From positions 1 to 64,000 of the forward strand of contig WFMF01000269.1 in assembly GCA_011033025.1 (NCBI GenBank): 64,000 nucleotides of DNA, written 5' to 3'. Source of the DNA: Beroe forskalii (lineage: Eukaryota > Ctenophora > Nuda > Beroida > Beroidae). Below, piece after piece: positions 1,320-45,465 of this stretch. How positions within the stretch are numbered: position 1 is the stretch's first letter; every line of letters begins with the position of its first letter. The position numbers were made by a program, and so were the translations under genes. The notes beneath the pieces are model-generated. The model had not been told where the DNA came from, searched no databases, and saw only the letters and a list, made by a program, of their open reading frames with translations.

Positions 1320-3310
1320 CTAGTGAAGAGGTTTAATGGAGCCTAGTGAAGGCCTAGTGGAGGTGATTGGAGCCCTAGTTGGGCTTTGTAGAGCCTAGTA
1401 GAGCTGTGTTGGGCCTGGTGGTCACTAGGCTCAGCACCTTCCCTCATCCTCCACTGGCTCCACTAACTCTACACTAGACTCCTCAGCCTTCACTAGTAGT
1501 GGGCTGCTCACTCTTCAGTGGAGGTTGAGTGGGAGGCTATGTAGAACTATTAGGCTCCACTAGGCTCCATTCAGCCTCAAACCACTCAGCCTTCACTAGT
1601 AGTGGAAGTTGTGTGGAGGTTGGAGTTAGAGGTTAAGTGGAGCTAATAGAGGGCTGATTGGAGCCTGATTGGAGGCTAGTTGGGGCCTAGTGGAGGCTGA
1701 CTGGAGCCTAGTGGAGGCTGACTGGAGCCCTAGTGGAGGTTGTGTAGGGAGCCTGGAGGCTGTGAAGCCTTCTGGAAGCTTTAGAGACTGGTGGACCACT
1801 GAAACCAATCACTCTCACTGGAAGCTCCACTCAGCCTTCACTTTATAGTAGTGGAGGCTGTGGGACTGTGGAGCCTCTTGGAGGGCTCAGTGGAGGCTGA
1901 GGTGGAACCCTAGTGGAGGCTGGGTGGAGCTAGTGGAGGCTGAGTGGAGCCTAGTGGAGGCTGAGTGGTACATAGTGGAGGCTGGGAGGAGCCTTGTTGA
2001 GGCTGAGTGGAGCCTAGTGGAGGCTGAGTGGAGCCTGAGTGGAGGCTGAGTGGAGGCTGGTGGAGGCTAGTGGAGGCCTGAGTGGGGCCTGTGGAGGCTG
2101 GGTGGAGCCTAGTGGAGGCTGGAGTGGAGGCTGGTGGAGCCTAGTGGAGCCTAAGGTGGGATCGTGTGGAGGCTGAGTGGAGCTAGTGGAGGCTAGTGGA
2201 GGCTGAGTGGAGCCTAGTGGAGGCTGAGTGGAGCCTAGTGGGCTGGTGGTGGTGGAGGCAGTGGAGCCTAGTGGAGGCTGAGTGGAGCCTAGTGGAGGCT
2301 GGAGTGGAGCCCTAGTGGGAGGCTGAGTGGAGCCTAGTGGAGGCTGGAGTGGAGCCTAGTGGTGGCTGTGTGGAGCCTAGCGGAGGTTGGAGTGGAGCCT
2401 AAACAGAGGCTGAGTGGAGCCTAGTGGAGGCTGAGTGAAGCCTAGTGGAGCTATGGAGCCGAGTGGAGCTGGTTGGAGCCTGGTGGAGGCTGTGTGGAGC
2501 CTAGTGGTGGCTGTGTGGAGCCTAGCGGAGGTTGAGTGGAGCCTAGTAGAGGCTGGTTGGAGCCTGGTGGAGGCTGGATGGAGCCTAGTGGTGGCTCTGT
2601 GGAGCCTAGTGGAGGCTGAGTGGTGCCTAGTGGAGGCTGTGGGGAGCCTAGTGGAGGCTGGGTGGAGCCTAGTGGAGGCTGAGTGGGGCCCTGGCTGAAT
2701 GGAGCCTAGTGGAGACTGGGAGTGGAGCCTAGAGGAGGCTGTGTGGAACCTAGTGAAAGCTGAGTGGAGCCTAGTGGAGTCAGTCTGAGTGGAGCATAGT
2801 GGAGGCTGGCTGGAGGCTGGTGGAGGCTGAGTGGAGCCTAGTGGAGGCTGTGTGGAGCCTCTTGGAGGCTGGGAGTGGAGGCTGGGTGGAGCCTAGTGGA
2901 GATTGTGTGGAGGCTGAGTGAGCCTAGTGGAGGCTGGAGTGGAGCCCTAGTGGAGGCTGTGTGGAGCCTAGTGAGGCTGGTTGGGAGCCTGGTGGAGGCT
3001 GGTTGGAGCCTAGTGGTGGCTCTGTGGGAGCCTAGTGGAGGCTGAGTGGTGCCTTGTGGAGGCTGTGTGGAGCCTAGTGGAGGCTGAGTGGAGCCTAGTG
3101 GAAGCAGGTTGGAGCCTGATGGAGGCTGGGTGGAGCCTAGTGGTGGCTGTGTGGAGCCCAGTGGAGGCTAAGTGGAGCCTAGTGGAGGCTGGTTGGAGCC
3201 TGGTGGAGGCTGGGTGGAGCCTAGTGGAGGCTGAGTGGTTCCTAGTGGACGCTGTGGAGCCCAGTGGAGGGTATTTGGAGCTATCTGAAAGTTTGGAGTC
3301 TATGTATCTA
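1320..3310. repeat. 21-bp minisatellite, about 2 kb
   Basis: A tandem array whose core alternates GTGGAGGCTG and AGTGGAGCCTA, giving a period close to 21 bp with many point changes and small indels. The period is a multiple of three, so two stretches (2435-2698 and 3035-3313) stay open and read as a heptad of the type W-S-L-V-E-A-x. These are products of the repeat and not genes. Diverged half-units and inverted units (CCTCCAC, AGCCTCCA) continue to about 3660. Confidence 0.93.
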
Positions 3311-11316: not shown

Positions 11317-12810
11317 ATGGGTGACCTAGGAGACTTTCTAGAACTGAGTGAAGATACCCAGGGCTCAGGGGCTTCGTCATCAGGACAAGAGGAAACCTCT
11401 GAGAACGAGGAAGTGTTTGACGTGAACACTGTCATAGAGAAGACCGGGTATGGTCCTTATCAGAGGCGTGTTGTCATGGTGATGGGTGTCATGTCCATGG
11501 CAGACGCGGCAGAGATCTGGCTGGCTACCATCATCCTCAACGACCTTCAGTGCGAATGGGACTTGACAAGCGCCCAAAAGGCACTAATTCCAGCAATAGT
11601 TTACGTTTTCTACGCTTTTGGCAGCATCATAGCCGGGAAAGTTGCTGACAAGTTCGGTAGGTTCCCTATTCTGCTTATCAGCGGTTATTTGATAGTGATA
11701 TCAGCGGTTGCTTCTGCTCTGGCGCCATCCTACAATCTCTTCATCACCTGCAGAGCTTTCACTGGCCTCGGTATAGGGGCCAGCTACGGCTGCTCCATGG
11801 TCTACACAACGGAAATCATGCCAACTGTCAAACGGTCGTGGGGCATCATGATCCTGGAGTGCTTCTGGGTGTTCGGGAGCATGTACGAGTGCATCATCGC
11901 GTACTTCGTGATGCACCTGGAGGACGGCTGGCGGATACAGATCCTCCTGACAGCCCTGCCCTGTCTGATCATGCTGATAATGCTGCACTTCATGGACGAG
12001 TCCCCGCGGTACCTCGTGATAAACGACAACGAACCCAAGGCCATGAAGGTGGTGGAGAAGATCTGCAAAGCTAACGGGAAGGAGGTGCCTTGCGGTAAGA
12101 TCTACTGCTCGGACGAGAGATCGGGAGGGTATGCGGATGTGTGGGCAGCGCCCCTCACCAGCGGCAGTCTCCAGATCAGCATCCACTTCTTCTGCAACAT
12201 GTTCCTGGTGTTCGGACTAGCCCTCCTCGTTCCGGACATGATGTACCGGAACTACTGCGGCATGAGCACCGACATCTTCGACGCTACGTACGTGAACAGC
12301 GAGGGTTGCACGGTCTTTACTCGGGCGGAGTACCTGTTTCTTCTGGGGGTGGCAGTCTCCTACTCTCCCGGTATGTTTGCAGGGACAGTGGCAGCGGAGA
12401 CGATAGGCAGGCGGTGGGGCTTCATCATCTCCATCTACACCGGGGCCATGTTCACTACCCTCCTGCTCATCTGCGCAGACAGCATCTTCACCTACATCAT
12501 CCTGTTCTCGTCCTCCTTCTCCTACGGCACCTACAATCAGGTGCTCTGGATATACACCCCCGAGTTCTATCCCACCTACATGCGGGCTACTGCCATTGGG
12601 GTGCAGAATGGCATCGGCAAGTTAGGAGCTGCCCTAGGCAGCTTCCTGACAGCGTTTCTGGACGACATCGGGGTGCGGTGGACTGTGACGAGTTACATAT
12701 GTATCATCCTCCTGGCTTGCCTTACAGCGTGCTTCATGGAAAAGGAAACTAAAGGCCAGGCACTGGAGGATCAGCGGGTGGATGAGAACACTAGACTCAA
12801 TAGGAAGTGA
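11317..12810 (+). CDS. SVOP/SV2-like major facilitator superfamily transporter
   Basis: A 497-residue, single-exon MFS protein with about twelve membrane segments. An acidic Ser/Glu-rich cytosolic N-terminus (1-50) precedes TGYGPYQRR, which matches the start of the SVOP family core. Family motifs are all present: WMADA-like SMADAAEIW (60-68), loop 2-3 GKVADKFGRFP (107-117), DESPRYL after helix 6 (227-233), loop 8-9 ETIGRR (361-366), EFYPTYMRATAIG (416-428), and the C-terminal EKETKGQALED (475-485). The 310-336 segment with several Cys aligns with the large loop before helix 8 in SVOP. Vertebrate SVOP sits in synaptic vesicles and related SLC22-type proteins move organic ions, but the substrate here is unknown. 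The ATG at 11317 is the first in frame. Codon use is GC-rich in third positions, unlike the flanks, which supports a real gene. An AATAAA lies downstream at 12972-12977. Confidence 0.93.
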   Translation: MGDLGDFLELSEDTQGSGASSSGQEETSENEEVFDVNTVIEKTGYGPYQRRVVMVMGVMSMADAAEIWLATIILNDLQCEWDLTSAQKALIPAIVYVFYAFGSIIAGKVADKFGRFPILLISGYLIVISAVASALAPSYNLFITCRAFTGLGIGASYGCSMVYTTEIMPTVKRSWGIMILECFWVFGSMYECIIAYFVMHLEDGWRIQILLTALPCLIMLIMLHFMDESPRYLVINDNEPKAMKVVEKICKANGKEVPCGKIYCSDERSGGYADVWAAPLTSGSLQISIHFFCNMFLVFGLALLVPDMMYRNYCGMSTDIFDATYVNSEGCTVFTRAEYLFLLGVAVSYSPGMFAGTVAAETIGRRWGFIISIYTGAMFTTLLLICADSIFTYIILFSSSFSYGTYNQVLWIYTPEFYPTYMRATAIGVQNGIGKLGAALGSFLTAFLDDIGVRWTVTSYICIILLACLTACFMEKETKGQALEDQRVDENTRLNRK

Positions 12811-18417: not shown

Positions 18418-20733
18418 TTAAAACTTAAAGGTGGGAAAGGAATCCATATCATCAGCGGAACCATACATTTTCTTGATTCTTTCAAGTTCAGCTTGATGTG
18501 AGGCAAGGATCTCCGGGGTCAAACCTGGGATGAAAATGTTATTGGATACTGGTGAAAACTTACAATTTACCATCGATGATTCATCAGCAACTATAAGTCT
18601 ATGAATATCAAATTAAACAAAATGTTACGCCCAGTTATGACTTGAGTAAAACTCAGAATTCAGGAGCATTGAACGTTTAGAAATTTCTCTCCTAAGTTCA
18701 AGAGCGATATTTCAATTTTCGGATTAATAATTTCAATCATAACCTGGTAAACTTCCCGCACTGATATCTTCAGCGCTTGAAAACTCTTTCAGTAACTCTA
18801 GGAAGGCATCTTTGATAGGATCCACTCCAGCTAACACAGCAGCTTCAGCTTCAGCAGCAACTTGCTGCCTTTTTGCCTCAGCAGCAGCAGCCTCAGCAGC
18901 GGCAGCTTCAGCAGCAGCAGCCTCAGCAGCGGCAGCCTCAGCCGCGGCGGCTTCTGCAGCAGCAGCCTCAGCAGCAGCAGCCTCAGCAGCGGCAGCTTCA
19001 GCAGCGGCAGCCTCAGCAGCGGCAGCTTCAGCAGCGGCGGCTTCAGCAGCAGCAGCCTCAGCCTCAGCAGCGGCAGCCTCAACAGCGGCGGCCTCAGCTT
19101 CTGCAGCAGCAGCGGCGGCCTCAGCAGCGGCGGCCTCAGCTTCTGCAGCAGCAGCCTCAGCAGCGGCGGCTTCAGCAGTGGCGGCTTCTGCAGCGGCGGC
19201 CTCAGCAGCGGCGGCCTCAGCTTCTGCAGCAGCAGCCTCAGCAGCGGCGGCTTCAGCAGCAGCAGCTTCCGCAGCGGCAGCCTCAGCCTCAGCAGCGGCG
19301 GCTTCTGCAGCGGCAGCCTCAGCAGCGGCAGCTTCTGCAGCAGCAGCCTCAGCAGCGGCAGCTTCTGCAGCAGCAGCCTCAGCAGCAGCAGCTTCTGCAG
19401 CAGCAGCCTCAGCAGCGGCGGCTTCTGCAGCAGCAGCCTCAGCAGCGGCGGCTTCTGCAGCGGCAGCCTCAGCAGCGGCGGCTTCTGCAGCGGCAGCCTC
19501 AGCAGCGGCGGCTTCTGCAGCGGCAGCCTCAGCAGCAGCGGCTTCGGCAGCCTCAGCAGCGGCGGCTTGCAGCGGCAGCCTCAGCAGCGGCGGCTTCTGC
19601 AGCGGCAGCCTCAGCAGCAGCAGCCTCAGCAGCGGCGGCCTCAGCAGCGGCGGCTTCAGCGGCAGCCTCAGCAGCGGCGGCTTCTGCAGCGGCAGCCTCT
19701 GCAGCGGCGGCTTCTGCAGCGGCAGCCTCAGCAGTGGCGGCTTCTGCAGCGGCAACCTCAGCAGCGGCAGCCTCAGCAGCGGCAGCCTCAGCAGCGGCAG
19801 CCTCAGCAGCGGCAGCCTCAGCAGCGGCAGCCTCAGCAGCGGCGGCTTCTGCAGCGGCAGCCTCAGCAGCGGCAGCCTCAGCAGCGGCGGCTTCTGCAGC
19901 GGCAGCCTCAGCAGCGGCGGCTTCTGCAGAGGCAGCCTCAGCAGCGGCGGCTTCTGCGGCGGCAGCTTCTACAGCGGCGGCTTCTGCGGCGGCAGCTTCT
20001 ACAGCGGCAGCCTCAGCAGCGGCGGCTTCTGCAGCAGCAGCCTCAGCAGCGGCGGCCTCAGCAGCGGCGGCCTCAGCAGCGGCGGCCTCAGCAGCGGCAG
20101 CCTCAGCAGCGGCAGCTTCAGCAGCGGCAGCCTCAGCAGCGGCAGCCTCAGCAGCGGCGGCTTCTGCAGCGGCAGCCTCAGCAGCGGCGGCTTCTGCAGC
20201 GGCAGCCTCAGCAGCGGCGGCTTCTGCAGCGGCAGCCTCAGCAGCGGCGGCTTCTGCAGCGGCAGCCTCAGCAGCGGCGGCTTCTGCAGCGGCAGCCTCA
20301 GCAGCGGCGGCTTCTGCAGCGGCAGCCTCAGCAGCGGCGGCTTCTGCAGCGGCAGCCTCAGCAGCGGCGGCCTCTGCAGCGGCGGCTTCAGCAGCGGCGG
20401 CTTCTGCAGCAGCAGCCTCAGCAGCGGCGGCTTCTGCAGCAGCAGCCTCAGCAGCGGCGGCCTCAGCAGCGGCAGCCTCAGCAGCGGCGGCTTCTGCAGG
20501 GATTTCAGCTGCAGCCTCTGCAGTCTTAGCTTCTATTGCATCATTTCGAACTTTGTCCATTATTTCTTGAACTGACGATGACTTTTTGCTTTTCTTCATT
20601 TTCTTTCTCCTCTTCTTCTCTTCTTTTTCTTCTCGTCTCCTTTTATCATTTTTGTCCGAGAGATGTCGAGGTTGCCCGAACTTAGCTAGAATAGTACTGT
20701 TCGGTCCATTCGTTGCCTCGTAACTCCTCGTCA
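18418..20733 (-). CDS. AAAAE-repeat protein, spliced, with a 2-bp frameshift
   Basis: A gene on the minus strand, not recognised. The large exon (20733-18744) follows the acceptor TTTTTTCAG and opens with a polar stretch (T-R-S-Y-E-A-T-N-G), then a Lys/Arg/Glu cluster (K-R-R-R-E-E-K-E-E-K-K and on) that looks like a nuclear targeting signal. About 545 residues of AAAAE repeat follow, which should form a very long helix. The end is unique: A-K-R-Q-Q-V, then GVDPIKDAFLELLKEFSSAED. A 219-bp intron (donor GTTATG at 18743, acceptor ATCCCAG) leads to the last exon 18524-18418, which reads LTPEILASHQAELERIKKMY, then an acidic Asp/Met segment and TFKF-stop. The join is in phase. At about 19567 two bases are missing from one repeat unit (CTTGCAG for CTTCTGCAG), so the two halves lie in different frames. 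This could be a sequencing or assembly error or a real disabling change. No in-frame ATG is visible in the large exon (the frame first opens at a GTG at 20773), so the start lies in an unseen upstream exon. Confidence 0.68.
18870..20510. repeat. 15/30-bp coding minisatellite (GCN-rich)
   Basis: About 109 units of 15 bp, often paired as 30-bp units of the type GCAGCCTCAGCAGCGG followed by CGGCTTCTGCAGCG. On the minus strand it encodes A-A-A-A-E. On the plus strand it stays open as S-A-A-A-A or as Q/R/L-rich frames, which are shadows. Synonymous variation is plentiful while the minus-strand protein motif is kept, with rare changes such as V, T or S for A. This suggests selection on the minus-strand protein. 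Confidence 0.9.
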
Positions 20734-20911
20734 CTGAAAAAACTCTAATGATTCTAGCTGTCAAATCGGACACCTCCGATTGATGGATAATTACTGTTTT
20801 AAAAGTGGTTAGTGAATAAATCTATCATTATTGCGGAATGCGGGTAGTAGAAATTTAAAATTGGATGACTTTACGATAAAATTCAATATTCTCGATTCTA
20901 TAATACAGACG

Positions 20912-21105
20912 TACAGTCACTGTTCAAAAGAAAAGTGATTTCGATTTTTTGGCCCTTCTTATCGCAGTAAATTTCAACTTTGAGCGATCACTGTGTGAAT
21001 CTAAAAAATAGCAGCACCTTGATTGTTTCTGATATCATTTGACTGATCATAGACAGCGAAAAATTTTCAAGGTGCTGCCTTAACATCTTTTTGAACAGTG
21101 ACTGT
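20912..21105. mobile_element. MITE with Tc1-like ends, about 190 bp
   Basis: The left end is TA-CAGTCACTGTTCAAAAGA and the right end TCTTTTTGAACAGTGACTG, nearly exact inverted copies. A second inner inverted pair (AGCAGCACCTTG and CAAGGTGCTGC) lies around 21010-21080. The left border has TA; the right border has TG and may have mutated. Ends of this type are seen in Tc1/mariner-derived elements. Confidence 0.7.
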
Positions 21106-21329
21106 GCCTAATTAAGTTACTAGCTAGCAATTGATGAACAAGCTCCACCCTTTCGCATTGGCGGATTTAAGTTTGTCTAAATGAGATCGCAAAAAGATCG
21201 CGACGAGATTGGAAAAAAAATAGCATGTTCCATAAAAGTAACTCGCGCACTGTGTCCATCCTGAAGCAATACAAAATGGCGCATATATGCCGCACAAAAC
21301 AGGTCACGTGACTTTAGACTCGGTTACGT

Positions 21330-21920
21330 ATTAAGAACGGTACCTTATTAACTACGGTACCTTAGTAACAACGGTACCTTATTAACAATGGCACCTTATT
21401 AACAATGGGACCTCATTAACAGCGGTACCTCATTGACAGCAGTACCTTATTAACAACGGTACCTTATTAACAGCGGTACCTTATTAACAGCGGTACCTCA
21501 TTAACAGCGGTACCTCATCGACAGCGGTACCTTATTAACAACGGCACCTTATTAACAACGGCACCTTATTAACAACGGTACCTTATTAACAACGGTACCT
21601 TATTAACAACGGTACCTTATTAACAACGGTACCTTATTAACAACGGTACCTTATTAACAACGGTACCTTATTAACAACGGTACCTTATTAACAACGGTAC
21701 CTTATTAACAACGGTACCTTATTAACAACGGTACCTTATTAACAACGGTGCCTTATTAACAACGGTACCTTATTAACGGTACCTTATTAACAACGGTAGC
21801 TTATTAACAACGGTAGCTTATTAACAACGGTACCTTATTAACAACGGTACCTTATTAACAACGGTACATTATTAACAACGATACCTTATTAACAACGGTA
21901 CCTTATTAACAACGGTACCA
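21330..21920. repeat. 17-bp minisatellite, first block
   Basis: About 34 copies of a 17-bp unit, GGTACCTTATTAACAAC, with sporadic variants (CAGC for CAAC, CTCATT for CTTATT, TAGC for TACC). Each unit has a KpnI-type GGTACC palindrome. A second block with the same unit is at 23405-23865. Confidence 0.93.
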
Positions 21921-21939
21921 TATTTACAACACATAATTA

Positions 21940-22500
21940 AGCAAGACAACTTGATTACCAATAAAACGAATCGAAATAATGGCGAGATTTGCAGCACTCG
22001 GCCTTATATATGATGGCTGACACCACTCCGTCACCTATGACGAACAGCGACGTATGCACATTCCACATACCAACTCAATGACGTTGACACCACTCGTAAC
22101 CTAATCAAGCATGACGAAAGTTACGTGCACATACCAAGTCTGTGACGTTGACACCACTCACTTTTCAATCACTTTCCGCACTTCTACAGTTCTTTCTCCA
22201 ATCTCCCGCGACTATCCTATCACTACGTACGGCGCCATCCATAAAGGACGTCCACAAATATTCGGCCATTCTAGACCCCTCCCCCTTGTCCGCATTTCCC
22301 CAATTAAAATCTTTTCAGTCATTAATTTTGGGCACGAAATTTTACAGTTTTCTTAGTCCGCATTTGGCGTAACATCCCAACCCCCTCATTGCGTACTTAT
22401 TTTAATGGAATGCCCCTGCTCACATTCCTATCACACTTCTTTCACTTACTGTACTTTGGGACGGCGGCGCGCACGCTCGCGCGCTAATTATATAATTCAG
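21940..22500. repeat. Segmental duplication, left copy
   Basis: From AGCAAGACAACTTGA onward this unique-looking sequence matches 23868-24200 closely: ATGGCGAGA, TATATATGATGGCTGACACC, GACGAACAGCGACGTATGCA and GACGTTGACACCACTC occur in the same order in both. Together with the adjoining 17-bp arrays, the similarity spans about 0.8-1.1 kb per copy, at an offset of roughly 1.9-2.1 kb. It has no coding frame of note and contains a secondary insertion at about 22215-22420. Confidence 0.85.
22215..22420. mobile_element. MITE-like insertion in one copy of the duplication
   Basis: The right-hand copy of the duplication (about 24130-24150) lacks about 200 bp that are present here, so this is an insertion with a natural empty site in the same window. 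Its ends are imperfect inverted repeats: GGCGCCATCCATAAAGGACG on the left, and on the right the complement of GGGGCATTCCATTAAAATAA. Similar CCATCCATAAA-type ends are common in animal MITEs. Confidence 0.6.
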
Positions 22501-23164
22501 CGCGTCATTGCGCGCGGAAAACTACATAAAATCTGTACGACCGCGTACGCAATGTTAGCAAGAAAATGGACAGAGCAGTAGATGTTCTAGCCCAAAATTG
22601 TCATGATTCTACATGTGGATTTACCTATTGATCCTCGACATAGCATGCCGCGCGTGCCGTAGGAAACGCAAAAAAGCTCCAACTATTTTCCAAGAATATC
22701 TGCGAATGAGATCATGATACGGGTAAGGTTTCATCCAATCAAGCAGGCGACTCGGCGTGATCTATTACCCACTTCACTCAGTGATAATTACGTCCTAAAA
22801 CTTAGGATGTGATATCAAGCAGACATAATGTAAGCCACAAGGAGACGAAGTGGATACTTTAATTCACGGATTACTGGGAAATCCATGACAAAAATGAAGA
22901 GGAACCGCCATGTAGATCATGACGATTCCATGACAATTCTGCTAGAACATCTACTCGGACAGAGTGGCAAATTAGTGTGACAGTGTGGCAAAAGAGTTTG
23001 GCTGTCAAATTTCACACTGCTTCTAACCTTTTGAGAACACATGCCTTAATTGGCATCTCTTCGTGCTTGTGGTTTATCAGATATCATTATTGTACATATA
23101 TATAAATTATTGTTTCAAAGCCCTTATTGGTACCCCACCGTGGGTTTTCAACTTTTCAACGACA
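22501..23164. other. Non-coding interval inside minisatellite block
   Basis: Starts with a GCGC-rich patch (22458-22515), then AT-rich DNA with no coding frame. Confidence 0.5.
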
Positions 23165-23405
23165 AAGTGATTACCAGCCACTCCTACTACAACTCCCACT
23201 ACGCCTTCCTTGTTGATTTATGACCAGCCACTCCTACCACGCCTTCCTTGACGAGTGTTGACTAGCCCATGCTACCACGCCTTTCTTGACGAGCGATGAC
23301 CAGCCACTCCTACCACGCTTTCCTTGACGAGTGATGACCAGCCAGTCCTACCACGCTTTTCTTGACGAGCGATGACCAGCACCTCCTACTCCAACCATGC
23401 CTCCC
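23165..23405. repeat. About 38-bp minisatellite
   Basis: Five to six degenerate copies of a unit of about 38 bp containing GACCAGCCACTCCTACCACG and CTTTCCTTGACGAGTGAT. Partial copies recur at 24200-24275, beyond the second duplicated segment, so this array belongs to the same duplicated complex. Confidence 0.82.
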
Positions 23406-23865
23406 TTTCAACGGTACCTTATTAACATCGGTACCACGTTAACAACTATACCTTATTAACAGCGGTACCTTATTAACAACGGTAACTTATTAACAACGGT
23501 ACCTTATCAACAGCGGTACCTTATTCGGTACGGTACCCTATTAACAACGGTATCTTATTAACAACGGTACCACGTTGAAAACGGTACCTTATTAACAACG
23601 GTACCACGTTAACAACGGTACCTTATTAACAACGGTACCTTATTAACAACGGTACCTTATTAACAACGGTACCTTATTAACAACGGTACCTTATTAACAA
23701 CGGTACCACGTTAACAACGGCACCTTATTAACAACGGTACCTTATTAACAACGGTACCACGTTAACAACGGTACCTTATTGACAACGGTACCTTATTAAC
23801 AACGGTACCGTATTAACAACGGTACCTTTTTAACAACGTTACCTAATTGACAATGGTACCATTAA
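23405..23865. repeat. 17-bp minisatellite, second block
   Basis: About 27 copies of the unit seen at 21330-21920. A variant GGTACCACGTTAACAAC occurs at intervals in this block only, so the two blocks have diverged since they separated. Confidence 0.92.
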
Positions 23866-23867
23866 GC

Positions 23868-24205
23868 AAGACAACTTGAACAAACGAATCGAAATAATGG
23901 CGAGAAGGGCAGTACACGTCATTATATATGATGGCTGACACCACTCCGTCATCTATGACGAACAGCGACGTATGCACATTCCACAATCCACATACCATCT
24001 CAATGACGTTGACACCACTCGTAACCTAATCAAGCATACCGATAAACGTTACGTGCACATACCAAGCATGTGACGTTGACACCACTCACTTTTCAATCCC
24101 TTTCCGCACTCAAACAATTCTTCCTCCAATCATTCGCCACTACCGAGTGCTCACATTGCAATCACATTTAATTCACTTAATTTGGCACGGCGGCGCGCAC
24201 GAGTG
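23868..24205. repeat. Segmental duplication, right copy
   Basis: Counterpart of 21940-22500, sharing the ordered blocks listed there, but without the roughly 200-bp insertion. It ends at the same GGCACGGCGGCGCGCACG-type patch, after which the 38-bp repeat unit resumes. Confidence 0.85.
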
Positions 24206-24275
24206 ATGACCAGCCCCTCCTACTTCTGGCACATCATCCTTGACGAGTGAATGAGTGCTGACCAGCCACAAAACG

Positions 24276-24954
24276 TTACTGAATACCAACACTCGAACAC
24301 GGATTTAACTTCGCTTGGATTCGCTTGTTACATTTTGTAACAATTTTTTCCACTTTAACTCGAAGCACAAAAGGAATATTACAGCCTTAACTTGTGTTGG
24401 ACAAACATATAAAAAATATCACATTGCAACTTTGAGTTTGCGTGAGTACAGACTGCAGACTACATGTTAACTGTTCAGATGATAATACATTCCAATCTGA
24501 CGAAAACAAAATTAATTGCAACAAATTTTAGATTGTATGTGTGATGTTTTATATGAGCTTGGCTAAAATATAGGCTGATCATCGTCCATGCTAGTTGGTG
24601 AGCGACAATATAAAACAAAATTTTTAATCTTAGAACGGCTTGTATTTGATTCAAAGCCAAATCTGGACTCCTGAGTCCAAAAGTCCTTCGGACAAAGCTT
24701 TACAAGAATTCTACATTTGCCATTCTTGCCTTCGAGTCTAACTCTTATAGCAGCCCTTAACCCTGATCTTAAATCAAAACTGAAACCTTTGTGAAAACTC
24801 AAGTTTGAACACACTATTCAATGCATCCATCATCCTGCCATTTTTTACCTTAACAACACACTTCTGGTTAATAACAAATATTGCGAGTTAGAAACCTACG
24901 CTTCATCCAACTTTCCACACATGACGAAACCGGGTTTTGCCTCAACACACCTGA
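24276..24954. other. Non-coding interval
   Basis: A minus-strand frame of 83 codons (24563-24814) is open but matches nothing I recognise, and no good splice sites flank it. I treat it as uncertain and do not call a gene. Confidence 0.4.
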
Positions 24955-25045
24955 CTCACTTGAATCACTTGACGAACTTGACTCACTTGACGTACTTGAC
25001 ACATTTGACGAACTTGAAACACATGAAACACTTGACGTACTCGAA
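24955..25045. repeat. 9/18-bp short tandem repeat
   Basis: Repeats of CACTTGACGNACTTGA(C/A). The plus-strand frame through it reads as a run of L-D-E/D-x units, which is a product of the repeat. Confidence 0.75.
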
Positions 25046-25059
25046 ACAGTTACTACGTA

Positions 25060-26830
25060 CCAAGTAAAGTAGGAGGTTTGAGTCAGGTATGATCTGAAGT
25101 AGACGTAGATCGACGGTTTGAGTCAGGTATAGCTGTGACAACTGTGACACCTTACTACTTACCAAGTAAAGTAGAGGTTGATCTGACGGTTTGAGTCAGG
25201 TATAACTGTGACAACTTACTACGTACCAAGTAAAGTAGATGTAGATCTGACGGTTTGAGTCAGGTATAGCTGTGACAACTTACTACGTACCAAGTAAAGT
25301 AGATGTAGATCTGACGGTTTGAGTCAGGTATAGCTGTGACAACTTACTACGTACCAAGTAAAGTGGAGGTAGATCTGACGGTTTGAGTCAGGTATAACTG
25401 TGACAACTTACTACGTACCAAGTAAAGTAGAAGTAGATCTGACGGTTTGAGTCAGGTATAACTGTGACAACTTACTACGTACCAAGTAAAGTAGATGTAG
25501 ATCTGACGGTTTGAGTCAGGTATAACTGTGACAACTTACTACGTACCAAGTAAAGTAGAGGTAGATCTGACGGTTTGAGTCAGGTATAACTGTGACAACT
25601 TACTACGTACCAAGTAAAGTAGATGTAGATCTGACGGTTTGAGTCAGGTACGGTATGACAACTTACTACGTACCAAGTAAAGTAGACGTAGATCTGACGG
25701 TTTGAGTCAGGTATAGCTGTGACAACTTACTACGTACCAAGTAAAGTAGACGTAGATCTGACGGTTTGAGTCAGGTATAACTGTGACAACTTACTACGTA
25801 CCAAAGTAGATGTAGATCTGACGGTTTGAGTCAGGTATAGCTGTGACAGCTTGAAGTAAAGTAGAGTTAGATCTGACGGTTTGAGTCAACTTACTACGTA
25901 CCAAGTAAAGTAGATGTTGATCTGACGGTTTGAGTCAGGTATAACTGTGACAACTTACTACTTACCAAGTAAAGTAGAGGTAGACCTGACGGTTTGAGTC
26001 AGGTATAACTGTGACAACTTATTACGTACCAAGTAAAGTAGACGTAGACCTGACGGTTTGAGTCAGGTATAACTGTGACAACTTACTACTTACCAAGTAA
26101 AGTAGAGGTAGATCTGACGGTTTGAGCGGTTTACCAAGTAAAAGTAGAACTGTATACTGTGAGGTATAAAGTAAAGACCAGGATTTTTCGGGAGGGTATA
26201 CTGTGACTCGAGCCGCGAGTAGAGGTAAACATCTGACGGTTTGAGTCAGGGGCGCACTGTGACAACTTATTACGTACCAAGTAAAGGCGAAAGACCTGAC
26301 GGTTTGAGTCAGGTATAATTTTGACAACAAGAAATGTACCAAGTAAAGGACGATATTTGTTGAAACTAGACATCGAAATAGTATACAATCAAATGGAAAG
26401 GAGCTACAGTCAGAATAAGATCAAACTATTTAACCAAGCCAAAGTATATGATTATGATTATGACGGTTTTTATTCTAACTAGTCGAAGGTATTTTCTTCT
26501 GTGACAACTTACTACGTACCAAGTAAAGTGGATGTAGATCTGACGGTTTGAGTCAGGTATAGCTGTGACAACTTACTACTTACCAAGTAAAGTAGAGGTT
26601 GATCTGACGGTTTGAGTCAGGTATAACTGTGACAACTTACTACGTACCAAGTAAAGTAGAGGTTGATCTGACGGTTTGAGTCAGGTATAACTTTGAAAAC
26701 TTACTACGTACCAAGTAAAGTAGAGGTAGATCTGACGGTTTGAGTCAGGTATAACTGTGACAACTTACCTCGTCACAAGTAAAGTAGAGGTAGATCTGAC
26801 GGTTTGAGTCAGGTATAACTGTGACACGCC
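25060..26830. repeat. 64-bp minisatellite, about 25 copies
   Basis: The unit contains ACGTACCAAGTAAAGTAGA, GATCTGACGGTTTGAGTCAG and GTATAACTGTGACAACTTACT. The period is exactly 64 bp over most of the array (for example GACGGTTTGAGTC at 25185 and 25249). It degenerates and is interrupted at 26125-26500 by about 0.4 kb of partly foreign sequence, then resumes. There are no unique spacers, so it is not a CRISPR-type array. Confidence 0.94.
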
Positions 26831-27839: not shown

Positions 27840-30621
27840 TCACTGCTCTAGCTCCTTACTTGACAGCGATATCCTGAAGTGAACAGGTACCTTCAGTCCT
27901 GGGTCAGTTACCACTATCTCCTGACAATCCACTATCTCAAGTTCTGAGAATGTTTTCTCTAAGTTAGGCCTCAGAGCTTGCTCCATTTGCGGAATGTTGC
28001 TCATGTACAAAGTCCGGGAAGTGTTCCCAACCACAGTAGTTAGGGTCGGTGATTTCAAGTTGAAACCCGTCTCCTCGCCCAACTTATCAAGGAAACACTG
28101 CAGTTTGTCAGACGGGGTGAAGCTAACTTCCTGCGTACTCCTCGAGCAAACGAGACAGTTTTCTTTCCGCTCGCTCTGGAAAGCGTAGGTGTAGACACCG
28201 TGGACGTTGTTGAACATCATGTAGTTATCAAGGTACATGTAGGAAGAGGTGGCGATCTTCATGCACTCGGTGACACACGCAGCGGCGATGGTGGCGTTAG
28301 TGGACGCCACCGCAGGGATGATCCGCTTAGTGACACCTTGTGTCAGTCTGTAGGTGACACCTGAGGGAGGGTTACTGTGTTAGTCTGTAGGTGACACCTG
28401 AGGGAAGGCAAATGGGTCAGTCTGTAGGTGACACCTGAGGGAGGATGACTGTGTTAGTCTGTAGTCCAATGTCTTATCTATAGAAGTATAGAGGTAACAC
28501 AGTAACACCTGAGAGAGGGTAACTGTGTCAGTCTGTAGGTGACAACTGAGGGAAGGCGACTGTATCAGTTTGTAATTTCTTGAACTCTGTTAGTCACACC
28601 TAACCGACTGTGTCAGTCAGTAAAGTGTGCGTAAAATTGAGTCAATGACAATTGAAAACAATCAAAAAAGCAAAAAAAAAATTGTTGCTCCATTGTCCAC
28701 GACTTCCCCCTTCCCCAGTTCATTTGACCCAAGTGCCCAAGTGGCCCAGTACCGTATGTATTCAATTACATACTATTAACTATGTATCCGATTAAAGTTG
28801 CAGGTAAATATGTAATTTCTTGAACTATCATCTAATTTTTCTCGGCATTTGCATTAATCATGTACATAAAAGAAGTAAGCACATCGTTTAAATATAATTG
28901 AGCTACCAGTTATCAGAAAAAGCAACCGAAAGCAAACGTCGATGTCACAAATTACCGAGATAGCAATTATGCAACGAATTGCAGCCCGGGAAATTAAAAT
29001 GCTGTTCAATGTATTAACAAAAATTTCGTTACGAAAACGCCATAAAAATGAAAATGAGACGATTGGAGACATTTAATTATGTGTAGCATCTCCTACATAT
29101 AGCTATCTATGTACACAGCGAACATAGCATGCAGGGTCTGGAGCAAGTCACAACACAGTAAGTCAGTTCGTGATTCTGCATTTTAGCTAGGAGAAGCGCT
29201 TCTCTACAGTTTGCAGCTGCTAGGGTATCATATTACATGTCCAGAGTGTAAATTTAGCATCAAATGTTCAGCAGTTAGAAGCGCATAAAATGCTACTGCA
29301 ATATTCAAACATAACATATTCAAACATGTATTTCATAATTGAAACCCAAATTTTATAGAGTAATGGTAGATAGTATTGCAGCACTTCTGTACTGTGGCGT
29401 TAAAAAGTATTCGAAGTAATGTAGCGGTAATATCAAAATTAAAAGTTTTATTCCGGAAAGGAATATCGTCATCGATAAAAACCATGCGAGCATTTGGTTG
29501 GTTAATGGTATTAGAAATAATAACTGTTCTATGTAATATCTGTGACCAGGGGCGACTGGCAACTGTTCGAATGTGGGATGGTATATGAGACTATTCAAGG
29601 GTAAAATTCGATCCGATTGAAGTACCGAGCATAGAATATCATGTTGGTGTATAAACCAGCCGATTCTTGTTACCGTGGAGCAAAAATTTACCTCACAGTT
29701 GTAAACTTTGTACAAGGTGAGGGCGATAAAAGAATCCAAGCACAAGTGTACTGCATTAATTCAAATATTATCAATGCTTAATTTATCTTATTAGTCCATC
29801 AGCAATCTTTAGTTCAATGTAAACTAAAATAACTTACCAGGTATGTTGTAAGTCTTTGCCCTCTCTACTGCACTCTTATAAAGCCATGTAATGTGGTGCG
29901 GATTATCCCCATCCACCTCTACACCTTCCCCAAAGGGCTGTTCCTTGGGCCACAACACGATCTTGGCATACTCGACACAGTGCTCTGGCAGTCTGGGAGT
30001 GTTGGCAATGGTGCAGAGAGGGTAGTTCTGTTGGGGAGGGTACAAGTCCATGTTGCACTCAATGCACGCTGTTGTGGTGGGTATGATCACCCGGCAGTGG
30101 CCTTTGAATGCTTCTGTTCCCCCATCCAGCAAGGGAATAATACTCTCGTGCTGCAGAGCTATGTTTAGAATCGTAGAGTTCATCCACCTACGGGCAGCAA
30201 CTGAGTCAAGACCACAGATCACCAAGTTGAACTGCAGGTAAAACTCGTCATCAAAATCCTGGATTTTCTTGAAGTGAGCCACATACTGAAGTCCTGGAAC
30301 TCGGTTCATAACTGACCGGACAGCTGCTTCTGCCTTTGGTTTTCCAATGTCATCTGGTGTGAAGAGGAACTGCCTGTTAAGGTTGGATAAGTCAATGGTA
30401 TCCATGTCAATAACATGGACAACCTTGAACCCTGACATCGCCAGACACTTGATGATCTCACAGCCCAAACCACCAGCACCCACCACCAGGATCTTGCACT
30501 GCTCCTGGAGCATGGGAATCATGTCTGGGTTGGGAGTGAAGTCTGGATCTGGGTTGCTACCTTGCCGAGTGAGAAGACGTGACAGATGTATGTCATAGTT
30601 TATTGGAATACTGCAATTCAT
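27840..30621 (-). CDS. NEDD8-activating enzyme E1 catalytic subunit (UBA3), two exons seen
   Basis: With NAE1/APPBP1, UBA3 adenylates NEDD8, holds it as a thioester and passes it to UBE2M for cullin modification. Exon 30621-29838 and exon 28360-27840 join across a 1477-bp GT-AG intron (donor GTAAGT) to give PG-VTYRLTQG, as in vertebrate UBA3, for 434 residues in all (human about 463). Adenylation domain: GAGGLGCE (48-55), MDTIDLSNLNRQF (73-85), GLDS-ARRW (137-146). Zinc Cys pairs: CIEC (186-189) and ENCLVC in the second exon. The catalytic Cys is C203 in PLCTIANTPRLPEHCVEY. A C-terminal ubiquitin-fold, E2-binding domain follows. The start is unsure. ATG at 30621 gives M-N-C-S-I-P without splicing, but ATTGCAG just inside it is also a good acceptor (exon from 30610), so a first coding exon may lie further right. 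Frame also remains open up to an ATG at 30798, which would add a hydrophobic stretch foreign to UBA3 and is unlikely. Confidence 0.93.
28335..28625. repeat. About 37-40-bp intronic repeat copying the UBA3 acceptor
   Basis: About six to seven copies, some decayed, of a unit that on the minus strand reads CCCTCAG-GTGTCACCTACAGACTGAC. The copy nearest the coding exon is the real splice junction. Others lie upstream in the intron, with intact acceptors at 28397 and 28444 and a near-intact one (TTGTCACC) around 28535-28545. The array therefore arose by expansion of the intron-exon boundary. Confidence 0.85.
28626..29837 (-). other. Remainder of UBA3 intron
   Basis: AT-rich intronic sequence between the acceptor-like array and the donor at 29837. 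Open frames on both strands at 29353-29745 have no recognisable content. I see no nested gene. Confidence 0.6.
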
Positions 30622-30798
30622 AGCCTCAAACATAGTAATACAGTAAGTAGATGAGGGTGATGTGTTAAAAAATACTTCAATTGACTTCAAATTGACAGGC
30701 TTTCCAGTAATATGAATAATCAGTCGTTCTTTCGAAATCAAGAGTTCATGGAAAATTGAAATGATTAAGAATAGCGCAATTGTCCTAAACACAATCAT

Positions 30799-31429
30799 TG
30801 GCAGATTTAAAATAGGACGTTACATTACTGTATAGGTAAAGAATGAGATCTGCATAAATAGCTAGGTCTGATAAAGCAGCCCTTTTTATCTGGCTTCTCA
30901 GTGATTAAGCGTTTCAAATCCAGAATCAACTATATTATGTGCTGACCACACTCATCAGGAAAATAAATTGATTGTTTCGTCAGTCATGGATCACGATAAT
31001 AATATTGAATTATAGAACATAATCATCTGGTTATAATACAAAATTTTTCTCAGACTAAATTGCAAACTGTACGAAAGTATGGAACAATACATATTTCATT
31101 AGTTTATTATCTACAGATGTGCATAGGTAATGAATAATAAATTTACTTGGTTCATAGGTACAAAATAGATTTAATATATTCATCTTCAACGAGATTTCTA
31201 CGTTTCTACATCACAACACCGTGTTCCAACTTATCTCTGTCCGAATTTATGAAACTTGAATTGTATATTTGTATATATTGAATGCCTATTTTCAACTTTT
31301 AAGTAGTACAGTTGAAACAGTTACAAAAAACAGAATAGGTGATAGAATAGGTGACAAATAGGTAGTGAGAACCCATAGCAGTACAAATTTGACAATTTTA
31401 GCATGTTCCCTCTTTAGTCTTTCCCTCTA
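30799..31429. other. Interval between GDPD1-like gene and UBA3
   Basis: Non-coding and AT-rich. The UBA3 promoter and first exon(s), and the 3' untranslated region of the GDPD1-like gene, should lie here or the first exon may lie further right. None can be fixed from sequence alone. Confidence 0.45.
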
Positions 31430-32422
31430 TCATCTTCCCAATGAATTATAAGCTCGGCCAACTGTTGAAGGTTGATGTTGATGTTCTTTACTGTAGAATT
31501 CTACCAATCGACTTGGGAAATCAGACATAATACCATCAATATTGAATTCACTTGCAACAGTAAACATTTCTTCAGAGTTTAAAACGAACAGTAAAACTTT
31601 GATATTTCTTTGATGAAGGTGCCAGAACAGTAGTCTATTCATACTCAAGAAATCTAAAACTTTAAGGCTTATCCTTTGGGTAACTGTCAACATTTCACTG
31701 AACTGTATCAAGCTAATACGTAGAAGTGGAATTGAAAAGAATGATTCTTTTATGGGGACAAATCCAAGTAAGCCCAAATAAAACATCAAATAGATAAATA
31801 TTACCTTTCCTATAGAAAAGAAAAGGGGAATCTTTTTGTTCACAGCATAGCACATACTATTTTTTGATTCATTCATATTTCCCCAAATGGTTTTGCCTAA
31901 CATTTCATGCTTCACAATTAGTTCTGAAACAGCATGAATTAAGGAAGGATCACCCTCTTTAGTATCGATATGAAACACCATTCTACTATGCTTTTCGAAT
32001 AGTTCATCAAGCATGACAAACTTCAAATCATTCTGATTACTGATGCACTTGACTTTGTCAAAGGCTAATGGTAACTGATTCTTATATTCGGGTAAATCTG
32101 AAAATAATGTTTCGGAGATGTTTCCCCGAATTCCAGTTACACGAAATAAATCATTGTCATGTGCAACGACAATGACCCCATCTTTTGTAAGCTGCACATC
32201 AAGTTCAATCATGTCAATTCCAAGTTGTTCACAGTTGTCAAATGCAGGCATTGTATTCTCAATAAACTCTCCTGCTCCACCCCTGTGCCCAGAAGCCCTA
32301 ACTGGTAATGATATGCCACAATGCTTTGTGTGTATAAGAGTGGGAAAAATAAATAGGAGCATGGAACTGAAGACATAGATAGAGATGATTGAAATTACGG
32401 TGATGGTCCATATATCTTCCAT
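31430..32422 (-). CDS. GDPD1-like glycerophosphodiester phosphodiesterase (lysophospholipase D type)
   Basis: A 330-residue membrane-anchored GDPD-family enzyme in a single exon. A hydrophobic N-terminal anchor (about 5-30) precedes the catalytic TIM-barrel start SGHRGGAGEFIENTMPAF (44-61). Catalytic and metal residues are in place: H46-R47, E73 and D75 (in IELDVQLTKDG), H88 (VVAHDNDL), and the FHIDTKE strand (150-156). A second hydrophobic segment near 200-222 followed by FVPIKE-FF, and the closing GIMSDFP, are as in vertebrate GDPD1 and GDPD3. Those enzymes release lysophosphatidic acid or N-acylethanolamines from lysophospholipids at internal membranes. That activity is inferred from family membership. 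Vertebrate genes have many introns, so the intronless form could be a retrocopy or reflect intron loss. The frame is intact. The start ATG at 32422 matches the family's short N-terminus. Confidence 0.93.
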   Translation of the reverse strand: MEDIWTITVISIISIYVFSSMLLFIFPTLIHTKHCGISLPVRASGHRGGAGEFIENTMPAFDNCEQLGIDMIELDVQLTKDGVIVVAHDNDLFRVTGIRGNISETLFSDLPEYKNQLPLAFDKVKCISNQNDLKFVMLDELFEKHSRMVFHIDTKEGDPSLIHAVSELIVKHEMLGKTIWGNMNESKNSMCYAVNKKIPLFFSIGKVIFIYLMFYLGLLGFVPIKESFFSIPLLRISLIQFSEMLTVTQRISLKVLDFLSMNRLLFWHLHQRNIKVLLFVLNSEEMFTVASEFNIDGIMSDFPSRLVEFYSKEHQHQPSTVGRAYNSLGR

Positions 32423-42577: not shown

Positions 42578-45465
42578 ACTAAATAGTTAAGTAGGTCTGA
42601 GAACGTTTTTCGGTAGTTCATAGTCCATATATTCACCAGAAAAAACTCCCCGGATTCCGAGTTGGGAAACCCCTTTTTGGACCCCTTTTCTCCCGAATAG
42701 GGGCACAAACTTCAACCGGCAATATCTCAGCTTCTGATGGAGATACAGGCCGTATCGTTATACCAAACTATGCAGGATGAGCACATCATAGGCGACGAAG
42801 CATAGTTTTAAAGTCGTAACCCTTTAGTTTTGGAGTTATGGACGAAAACCTCTTTTTTAGCCCTACGCCAGAACCCCAAAATTGCCCTTTTTGATAAATA
42901 GAATCTGAAGGACCTAGAGAACTCAACGAGGACACTACGTCATGCAGAATCATCACATTATGGGGGGCAGAACATGGTTTCAAAGTCCTAACCCCTTTCG
43001 TTTAAGAGTTATGGACGAAAAACCCCTTTTTAGCCCTACGCATAACCCCAAAAATGCCCCTAGTCAATAAATAGAATCTGAAGGACCTAGAGAACTCAAC
43101 GAGGACACTACCCTGTGCAGAATCATCACATTTTGGGGGTAGAACATGGTTTCAAAGTCCTAACCCCTTCCGTTTAAGAGTTATGGACGAAAAACCCTTT
43201 ATTAGCCCTATGCGTAACCCCAAAATTGCCCCTATTAATAGATAAAATCTGAAGGTCGTAGAGACCTGAACGAGGACCCTAACCTATGCAGAATCATCAC
43301 ATTATGGGGGTAGAACATGGTTTGAAAGTCCTAACCCCTTTCGTTTTTGAGTTATGGACGAAAAAACCTCTTTCAACTCCAAAATTTTTAATCCAAAATG
43401 GAATAGAGCTTGGTTATATAAGTATATAAGATAGGGATAAAAATCAAATGAACACGGCATGATATTCCACAAAAATATAACAGTAAAATCGAACCTTTTC
43501 CTAAAAGAATGCAGAGGAAGTTTATAAAGAATAATTATGACACATCACATATATCTTAAACATTTCATCTACTGCTACTGCTAGAAACATACAATGCTAA
43601 CTTAAAGTGTTCCACTTTCTATAATGTAAACATGTCTCTATTTTGCAATAGATTACGACTACAGCTGCTATCGGGTTTAGGATAAACCTGATCTGATTTA
43701 CAGCATAGACCGGAATAGTTTTTATGTTATGAAGTTATGAGACGGAGTAATTTGAATACTCAGTGTCATACTAACCATGTTCAACTCATAATCAAATAAA
43801 ACATTGAGAAAGCCAAAAAACGTGGCACGTCATTGTGGTACATACTACATATTATAGTTTCATTAATACCCACAGTATCCCGGAAGATGCTCTCTACCAT
43901 GTCAGTATTCAATATGTTGTGCAGTATGATGCCCTCACGTAATATTTTAGGGTGTGCTTACTCCAATATATCACGTACATTGTACACCTCAGCACCCTTG
44001 ATCGTAAGGTGAATGTGAAACCTACTTAAATTTCATTGTCACAAAACAAATATCCCGTTAAACTCTCAATACCATGATCAAGTTGGCGTTCTAGTTCAAG
44101 GATATATTTACAAATGACAACGTGTTTCCGATCAATTGTGGAATAAAAAGCTTTGATAACATGAATTGAAAAATCTCAGTATTCTCAAAATTGTCGTCAT
44201 AGGCTTTTATGTCATTATTATCGAGCGACTCACGGTCTAACAGCTTTGGATTTCCTGGTGTGTAGTGTGCCTGACCTTTTTTTGACCTGGTGTAGTGTGC
44301 CTGACCTTTTTGAAACCCGATTCAAGATCTTCTAGACGATTTAATGCCAAACAAATTGTATCCTAAAAGGCACACGAAATTCTAACCTAGCAAAATAGTA
44401 AATGAATTTTTTTGTCTTTTATAATAATTTATTGATAATATTTTATTAAGTTCATTAAAGGCTCCTTCCACCGGATTAACACACCAGGAAACCATCAGCA
44501 ATCAGAACACCGATCATCATTCGTCCAGTTTTTCAAATGGTTTCAATTTCAATCATACAAACTTCTTTCATTACTCGGCTGTACGACGTTCACAGAAAGA
44601 GGACTATTTTGTTACTTTGTTACCCATGGGGCTGAAAATGGGGTTTTCGTCCATAACTCAAAAAATGAAAGGGGTTAGGACTTTCAAACCATGTTCTACC
44701 CCCATAATGTGATGATTCTGCATAGGTTAGGGTCCTCGTTCAGGTCTCTACGACCTTCAGATTTTATCTATTAATAGGGGCAATTTTGGGGTTACGCATA
44801 GGGCTAATAAAGGGTTTTTCGTCCATAACTCTTAAACGGAAGGGGTTAGGACTTTGAAACCATGTTCTACCCCCCAAAATGTGATGATTCTGCACAGGGT
44901 AGTGTCCTCGTTGAGTTCTCTAGGTCCTTCAGATTCTATTTATTGACTAGGGGCAATTTTGGGGTTATGCGTAGGGCTAAAAAGGGGTTTTTCGTCCATA
45001 ACTCTTAAACGAAAGGGGTTAGGACTTTGAAACCATGTTCTGCCCCCCCATAATGTGATGATTCTGCATGACGTAGTGTCCTCGTTGAGTTCTCTGGTCC
45101 TTCAGATTCTATTTATCAAAAAGGGGCAATTTTGGTGTTACGCGTAGGGCTAAAAAGAGGTTTTTCGTCCATAACTCCAAAACCAAAGGGGTTACGACTT
45201 TAAAACTATGCTTCGTCGCCTGTGATGTGCTCATCCTGCATAGTTTGGTATAACGATACGGCCTGTATCTCCATCAGAAGCTGAGATATTGCCGGTTGAA
45301 GTTTGTGCCCCTATTCGGGAGAAAAAGGGGTCCAAAAAGGGGTTTCCCCAACTCGGAATCCGGGGAGTTTTTTCTGGTGAATATATGGACTATGAAACTA
45401 CCGAAAACGTTCTCAGACCTACTTAACTATTTAGTTCACAGGTGGTTACTGTCGTACCCTTACTA
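42537..45465. mobile_element. 2.9-kb foldback element with long tandem-repeat arms
   Basis: The arms, about 42537-43385 and 44620-45465, are inverted copies of each other. The outer ends read TAGTAAGGGT, and further in GTGAACTAAATAGTTAAGTA. The left arm has about 15 extra bases near 42549-42563. Each arm contains about three copies of a unit of 170-173 bp marked by GAGTTATGGACGAAAA, GGGGTTAGGACTTT (or its complement) and AACGAGGACACTA. The inner 1.2 kb is AT-rich, with no transposase frame, and includes a direct repeat of GGTGTAGTGTGCCTGACC near 44260-44310. It fits the foldback class (long inverted arms made of tandem repeats). It is non-autonomous. No clear target duplication. Confidence 0.85.

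Follow-up and report, generated by a model that had tools for sequence, protein, structure and literature searches.

The peripheral stalk of the mammalian ATP synthase is described as comprising b, d and F6 together with OSCP, with the C-terminus of ATP8 reaching b, d and F6 (PMC6131620), and human cells without F6 are reported to contain no assembled ATP synthase (PMC10743364). By its title, a 2001 study by Velours reports that bovine F6 substitutes for subunit h in yeast. In Drosophila, Knon is described as a testis paralogue of subunit d that carries 532 extra residues, pushes the ATP synthase towards monomers and is required for the Nebenkern (PMC5364652). The same paper describes a fly testis paralogue of F6, 147 amino acids long as compared with 106 for its sister, which is required for mitochondrial elongation and whose knock-down damages spermatid mitochondria (PMC5364652). 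According to that account, gross mitochondrial shape is unchanged by Knon in flight muscle, which limits the use of Knon as an analogy (PMC5364652).

We analyzed a stretch of 64,000 nucleotides of Beroe forskalii DNA (contig WFMF01000269.1, positions 1 to 64,000; hereafter the window) in which an F6 domain follows a long AAAAE array on the minus strand. The gene resembles Knon and the fly testis F6 paralogue, as these are described in PMC5364652, in being a stalk-subunit paralogue with a large charged extension beside a normal copy; as for Knon, the genome holds a second, short copy of the subunit, here on contig C477. The extension of Knon is however C-terminal on subunit d, rich in E and K and predicted to be unstructured, whereas the present one is N-terminal on F6 and made of A and E only, and the fly testis F6 paralogue gains only ~40 residues as compared with ~530 here (PMC5364652). 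The ATP synthase of Euglena likewise has a stator enlarged via extended or extra subunits, but in the description of PMC6930080 this enlargement consists of extensions of OSCP and d and of extra subunits, and not of a simple repeat on F6. Among the open-licence PMC papers listed in a literature search, none names an F6 that carries an alanine-rich array.

Gene layout and F6 identity of the tail

The features of the gene are listed below in the order of transcription.

20498 to 20764, minus strand: part before the array, with the presequence-like LTARIIRVFSVTRSYEATNG and then a K/R-rich segment (from translation and composition)
19582 to 20497, minus strand: N-side AAAAE array, 306 residues, sharing its frame with the basic part
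19553 to 19581, minus strand: frame break, with a 2-base deletion relative to the repeat register near 19568 and the stop of the N-side frame at 19553
18877 to 19566, minus strand: C-side AAAAE array, 230 residues, in the F6 frame and within ORF 18733..19968
18744 to 18876, minus strand: N-terminal portion of the F6 tail, AKRQQ...SLPG (from the PF05511 match of the joined tail and from solved F6 chains)
18525 to 18743, minus strand: GT-AG intron of 219 nt interrupting the F6 domain, splice sites intact
18418 to 18524, minus strand: final exon with the remainder of F6, LTPEIL...FPTFKF, and stop TAA (PF05511)

The array is built on a 15-bp unit with a 30-bp higher order at 18875-20499, and its minus-strand reading, coding over 18877-20497, is AAAAE. 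The array is real, although the initial annotation had put it at about 545 residues and we count 536: 306 on the N-side of the frame break (239 A, 62 E, 3 V, 1 S and 1 T) and 230 on the C-side (179 A, 49 E, 1 T and 1 V). Downstream of it we read AKRQQVAAEAEAAVLAGVDPIKDAFLELLKEFSSAEDISAGSLPG, then the intron (18743-18525), then LTPEILASHQAELERIKKMYGSADDMDSFPTFKF and a stop. The exons on either side of the intron join in phase, as had been proposed from the first reading of the sequence.

The joined tail of 79 residues matches the Pfam profile PF05511 (coupling factor 6) with an E value of 2.7e-11 and 44.1 bits, above the cut-off of 27.9, and covers positions 35 to 95 of the 97 in the profile; the last exon by itself reaches 25.6 bits, below the cut-off. 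In a search against solved structures the top matches were F6 chains (9b0x_L, E 9e-9; 8h9g_L, E 5.8e-7). Designed ankyrin proteins were numerous among the best 60 of the 98 sequences found up to E 10, with E values from 2.8e-4 upwards, and we take these for chance similarity of Ala- and Leu-rich helices. On these sequence matches the tail is identified as an F6 domain, of the peripheral-stalk subunit family of the ATP synthase. The C-terminus had been described as unique and conserved-looking; it is conserved, but it is not unique, since it is the domain found in PF05511 and in solved F6 chains. While the tail thus passes the profile cut-off for coupling factor 6 (ATP5PF/ATP5J; PF05511), the gene differs from an ordinary F6 in having ~620 residues (88 + 536) ahead of the F6 domain, as compared with ~17-20 in the short copy.

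A search of the 216 Mb genome with the PF05511 profile gave two loci, the gene in the window and the one on C477. The latter consists of MSLRNTLRLLPAIRQLS, an intron and then a one-exon F6 (exons joined by eye), lacks the intron that interrupts F6 in the window gene, scores 34.7 bits against PF05511 and is of normal short length. It is identical to the window tail in 25 of 63 columns, and its best match to solved F6 chains has an E value of 1.6e-3, as compared with 9e-9 for the window tail. This indicates that the copy bearing the array has the more typical F6.

Counted from LTARIIRVFSVTRSYEATNG, 88 residues precede the array, of which 24 are K or R and 13 are D or E. LTARIIRVFSVTRSYEATNG resembles a mitochondrial presequence when read by eye and is a candidate only. 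The basic cluster had been read as nuclear in type, and a nuclear protein held by a long AAAAE helix would agree with a K/R-rich cluster ahead of the array. This cluster lies however between a presequence-like stretch and a domain of the mitochondrial ATP synthase, and the nuclear reading is therefore not supported; with F6 at the C-terminus, we find such a protein hardly credible.

The open frame of the part before the array extends to 20821. We looked for a first exon and start codon among ATG-to-donor candidates of up to 300 nt with at least 5 of 7 donor bases, and none of the 11 candidates (starts in 20850-25900) was convincing. A MITE-like element (window 20905-21115) with perfect 17-nt inverted ends (20913-20929 and 21089-21105) precedes the open frame by about 150 bases; among 83 candidates in the genome, of which 40 were scored, it has 39 further matches, mostly partial, at 85-93% identity. 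Two arrays of one 17-bp unit (TATTAACAACGGTACCT in rotation), with 36 copies at 21329-21930 and 27 copies at 23409-23860, also sit just upstream of the F6 gene.

The frame break and the coding status of the array

The array had been taken for one reading frame, which does not hold because of a single 2-base deletion near 19568. The reading frame that contains the basic part closes with EAAAASRRC and a stop at 19553, and the F6 tail is in a different frame. Alignment of the repeats gives eight indels in the array, seven of them multiples of three and the remaining one being these 2 bases. The gene is thus not open from start to stop in the assembly. The F6-side ORF (18733..19968) contains no Met and, as assembled, no ordinary product therefore links a start codon to F6. 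This ORF nevertheless runs without a stop from the C-side array into the first F6 exon, so that the fusion of the 230 C-side residues to F6 is independent of the frame break.

The break may stem from an assembly error in the repeat, from a polymorphic allele or from a young pseudogene, three causes that are not distinguishable. We searched the assembly for a second allele: the N-terminal part matched contig C324 only (one match), and of the three matches of the tail, two lay on C324, one for each exon, and the third was the diverged copy on C477. Elsewhere in the window a sugar/MFS transporter (11317-12810, 497 aa) and a GDPD-family enzyme (31430-32422, 330 aa) have long open frames, an indication that the bases outside repeats are accurate.

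If the locus were a young pseudogene, an F6 copy would have expanded its repeat and then lost its frame, with the short F6 on C477 doing the work. The 2-base break, the F6-side ORF without Met, the lack of a convincing first exon among the 11 candidates and the existence of a second F6 gene agree with this reading, which we nevertheless consider unlikely. The window F6 is the closer of the two to solved F6 chains, its splice sites are intact and the array has no further frame-breaking indel. Moreover, amino-acid changes are not commoner after the break, where they affect 2 of 168 Ala cells, than before it (5 of 240).

Mismatches to the repeat unit fall on codon positions 1, 2 and 3 in the proportions 3/5/147, that is 147 of 155 on the third. 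A 21-bp array in the same window (1889-3270), with no known coding role, shows 34/24/50 mismatches and only 1 of its 37 indels is a multiple of three. A least-change count over 21 unit types (102 units of 15 bp, other unit lengths being left out) makes at least 14 of 20 changes between unit types synonymous, against 29% expected (p = 1.7e-4). Synonymous variation under a kept protein motif had been put forward as a sign of selection on the protein, and this count agrees with that part of the claim. Against it stand the 11 variants that occur in a single unit only, 5 synonymous and 6 non-synonymous, which indicate that the newest changes are hardly filtered, and the plus-strand reading of the array as AAAAS, which scores an identical 14 of 20. 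The assignment of strand and frame therefore rests on the flanking domains and not on the repeats, and we rejected the repeats alone as evidence of strand. The openness of the frame was likewise rejected as evidence of coding, because the array is also overlapped by five more ORFs of 177-610 aa, which use other frames or the opposite strand.

Two other readings bear on these counts. In one, the gene works as F6 and the AAAAE array is a minisatellite of neutrally varying length that forms part of an exposed linker and that the cell removes or ignores. The window is rich in minisatellites and the near parity of the newest changes would suit such a tolerated expansion; all 9 changes among the 10 unit types with at least two copies are however synonymous, in contrast to the single-copy variants (Fisher p = 0.014), and we regard this reading as distinctly improbable. 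In the other, the array does not code for protein, for instance because it lies in an intron, and a short F6 is spliced from the flanking exons. Several frames are open regardless and the repeat contains, by eye, many CAG acceptor-like sites, but the third-position pattern and the indels in multiples of three are unlike those of the comparison array, making a non-coding array very doubtful. Slippage in whole codons could account for part of the third-position pattern. That the array codes for protein is supported by the third-position mismatches and the indel lengths. A search for RNA families gave no match within the window.

Proposed function of the extension

We propose, with a probability of roughly 0.55, that the gene encodes an F6 paralogue whose long negative arm alters the packing of the ATP synthase in a Knon-like manner. 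The data show an F6 domain joined to an array with coding features; the rest, namely import, assembly into the enzyme, the helix, the effect on packing and restriction to a tissue, we infer. The frame break would be an assembly error or confined to one allele. A nuclear-encoded paralogue of F6 would have gained ~530 residues of AAAAE between a probable presequence with its basic segment and the F6 domain. The latter would dock in the stalk and displace the short F6, for which the long F6 would substitute in some cells. The extension, helical by its composition, would project from the stalk as a rod, ~80 nm long if its 536 residues form a single unbroken helix with a rise of 0.15 nm each, and would carry one negative charge per five residues, evenly distributed about the rod. 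By its bulk and charge the rod would space adjacent ATP synthases or impede their pairing, and the changed spacing would shape inner membranes in some cell type, by analogy with what has been proposed for Knon in fly spermatids.

Single alpha-helix (ER/K) domains are long, charged helices that stand alone, and the array resembles them in being long, charged and probably a lone helix. These domains alternate E with K or R, whereas none of the 536 residues of the array is K or R; E-K bridges are therefore absent here. On a 100-degree helical wheel the Glu resultant is 0 for AAAAE as compared with 0.42 for a heptad control, and the heptad-like face of a coiled coil is thus missing. As Glu is spread evenly round the helix, a lone, soluble, negative rod would be expected and not a coiled coil. 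If F6 truly bears such an arm, nature would have provided a test of how the bulk of the stalk controls dimer rows and cristae, and the idea drawn from Knon, that variants of stalk subunits shape mitochondria, would reach beyond insects.

Other stalk subunits and mitochondrial context

Within the exons that matched, no extension was seen in the other stalk subunits d, b and OSCP. Subunit d has one locus with a 154-aa open frame, subunit b has two matches above the cut-off and one below, and OSCP has two matches, both on one contig. Two subunit b matches, G000:C224:299978-300193 (+) and 318356-318490 (-), are 18 kb apart and cover different parts of the profile; this opposite-strand pair may reflect two separate genes for b or an unusual arrangement.

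COX1 was found on contig C1134 (13,339 bp) and needs TGA to be read as Trp. ARAGORN detected no tRNA in two stretches covering this contig, a weak result since the bacterial code was used. C1134 also carries a long ND5-like ORF (by reading) followed by two large ORFs of 368 and 313 aa, and the matches to ATP6 are on a different contig, C176, in two pieces. These features fit the account in PMC6991124, by which ctenophores have no mitochondrial tRNAs and a nuclear ATP6, and the Beroe forskalii mitogenome has two large unidentified ORFs after ND5. It describes ATP8 as missing from ctenophore mitochondrial genomes and as undetected in the nuclear DNA of Mnemiopsis and Pleurobrachia. With ATP6 nuclear and ATP8 not found, the ctenophore ATP synthase is, by that account, already altered (PMC6991124).

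A bolder version of our proposal, which we think quite unlikely, is that the stator was rebuilt in one comb jelly lineage, within a phylum without detected ATP8. Cristae would then be organised by a rod of up to ~80 nm on the more typical F6, this rod tethering or spacing the enzymes of several dimers.

On C1134 the opening of a 127-aa ORF seems, by eye, to recur at the beginning of the 368-aa ORF (L013, 971-1354 and 4206-5312). In the window, the arrays of 172/173-bp units at 42768-43373 and 44629-45210 are, judged by their consensus, apparent reverse complements of one another. E2_bind and ThiF domains are encoded on the minus strand at 27840-28379 and 29824-30819, and presumably belong to one UBA3-like gene.
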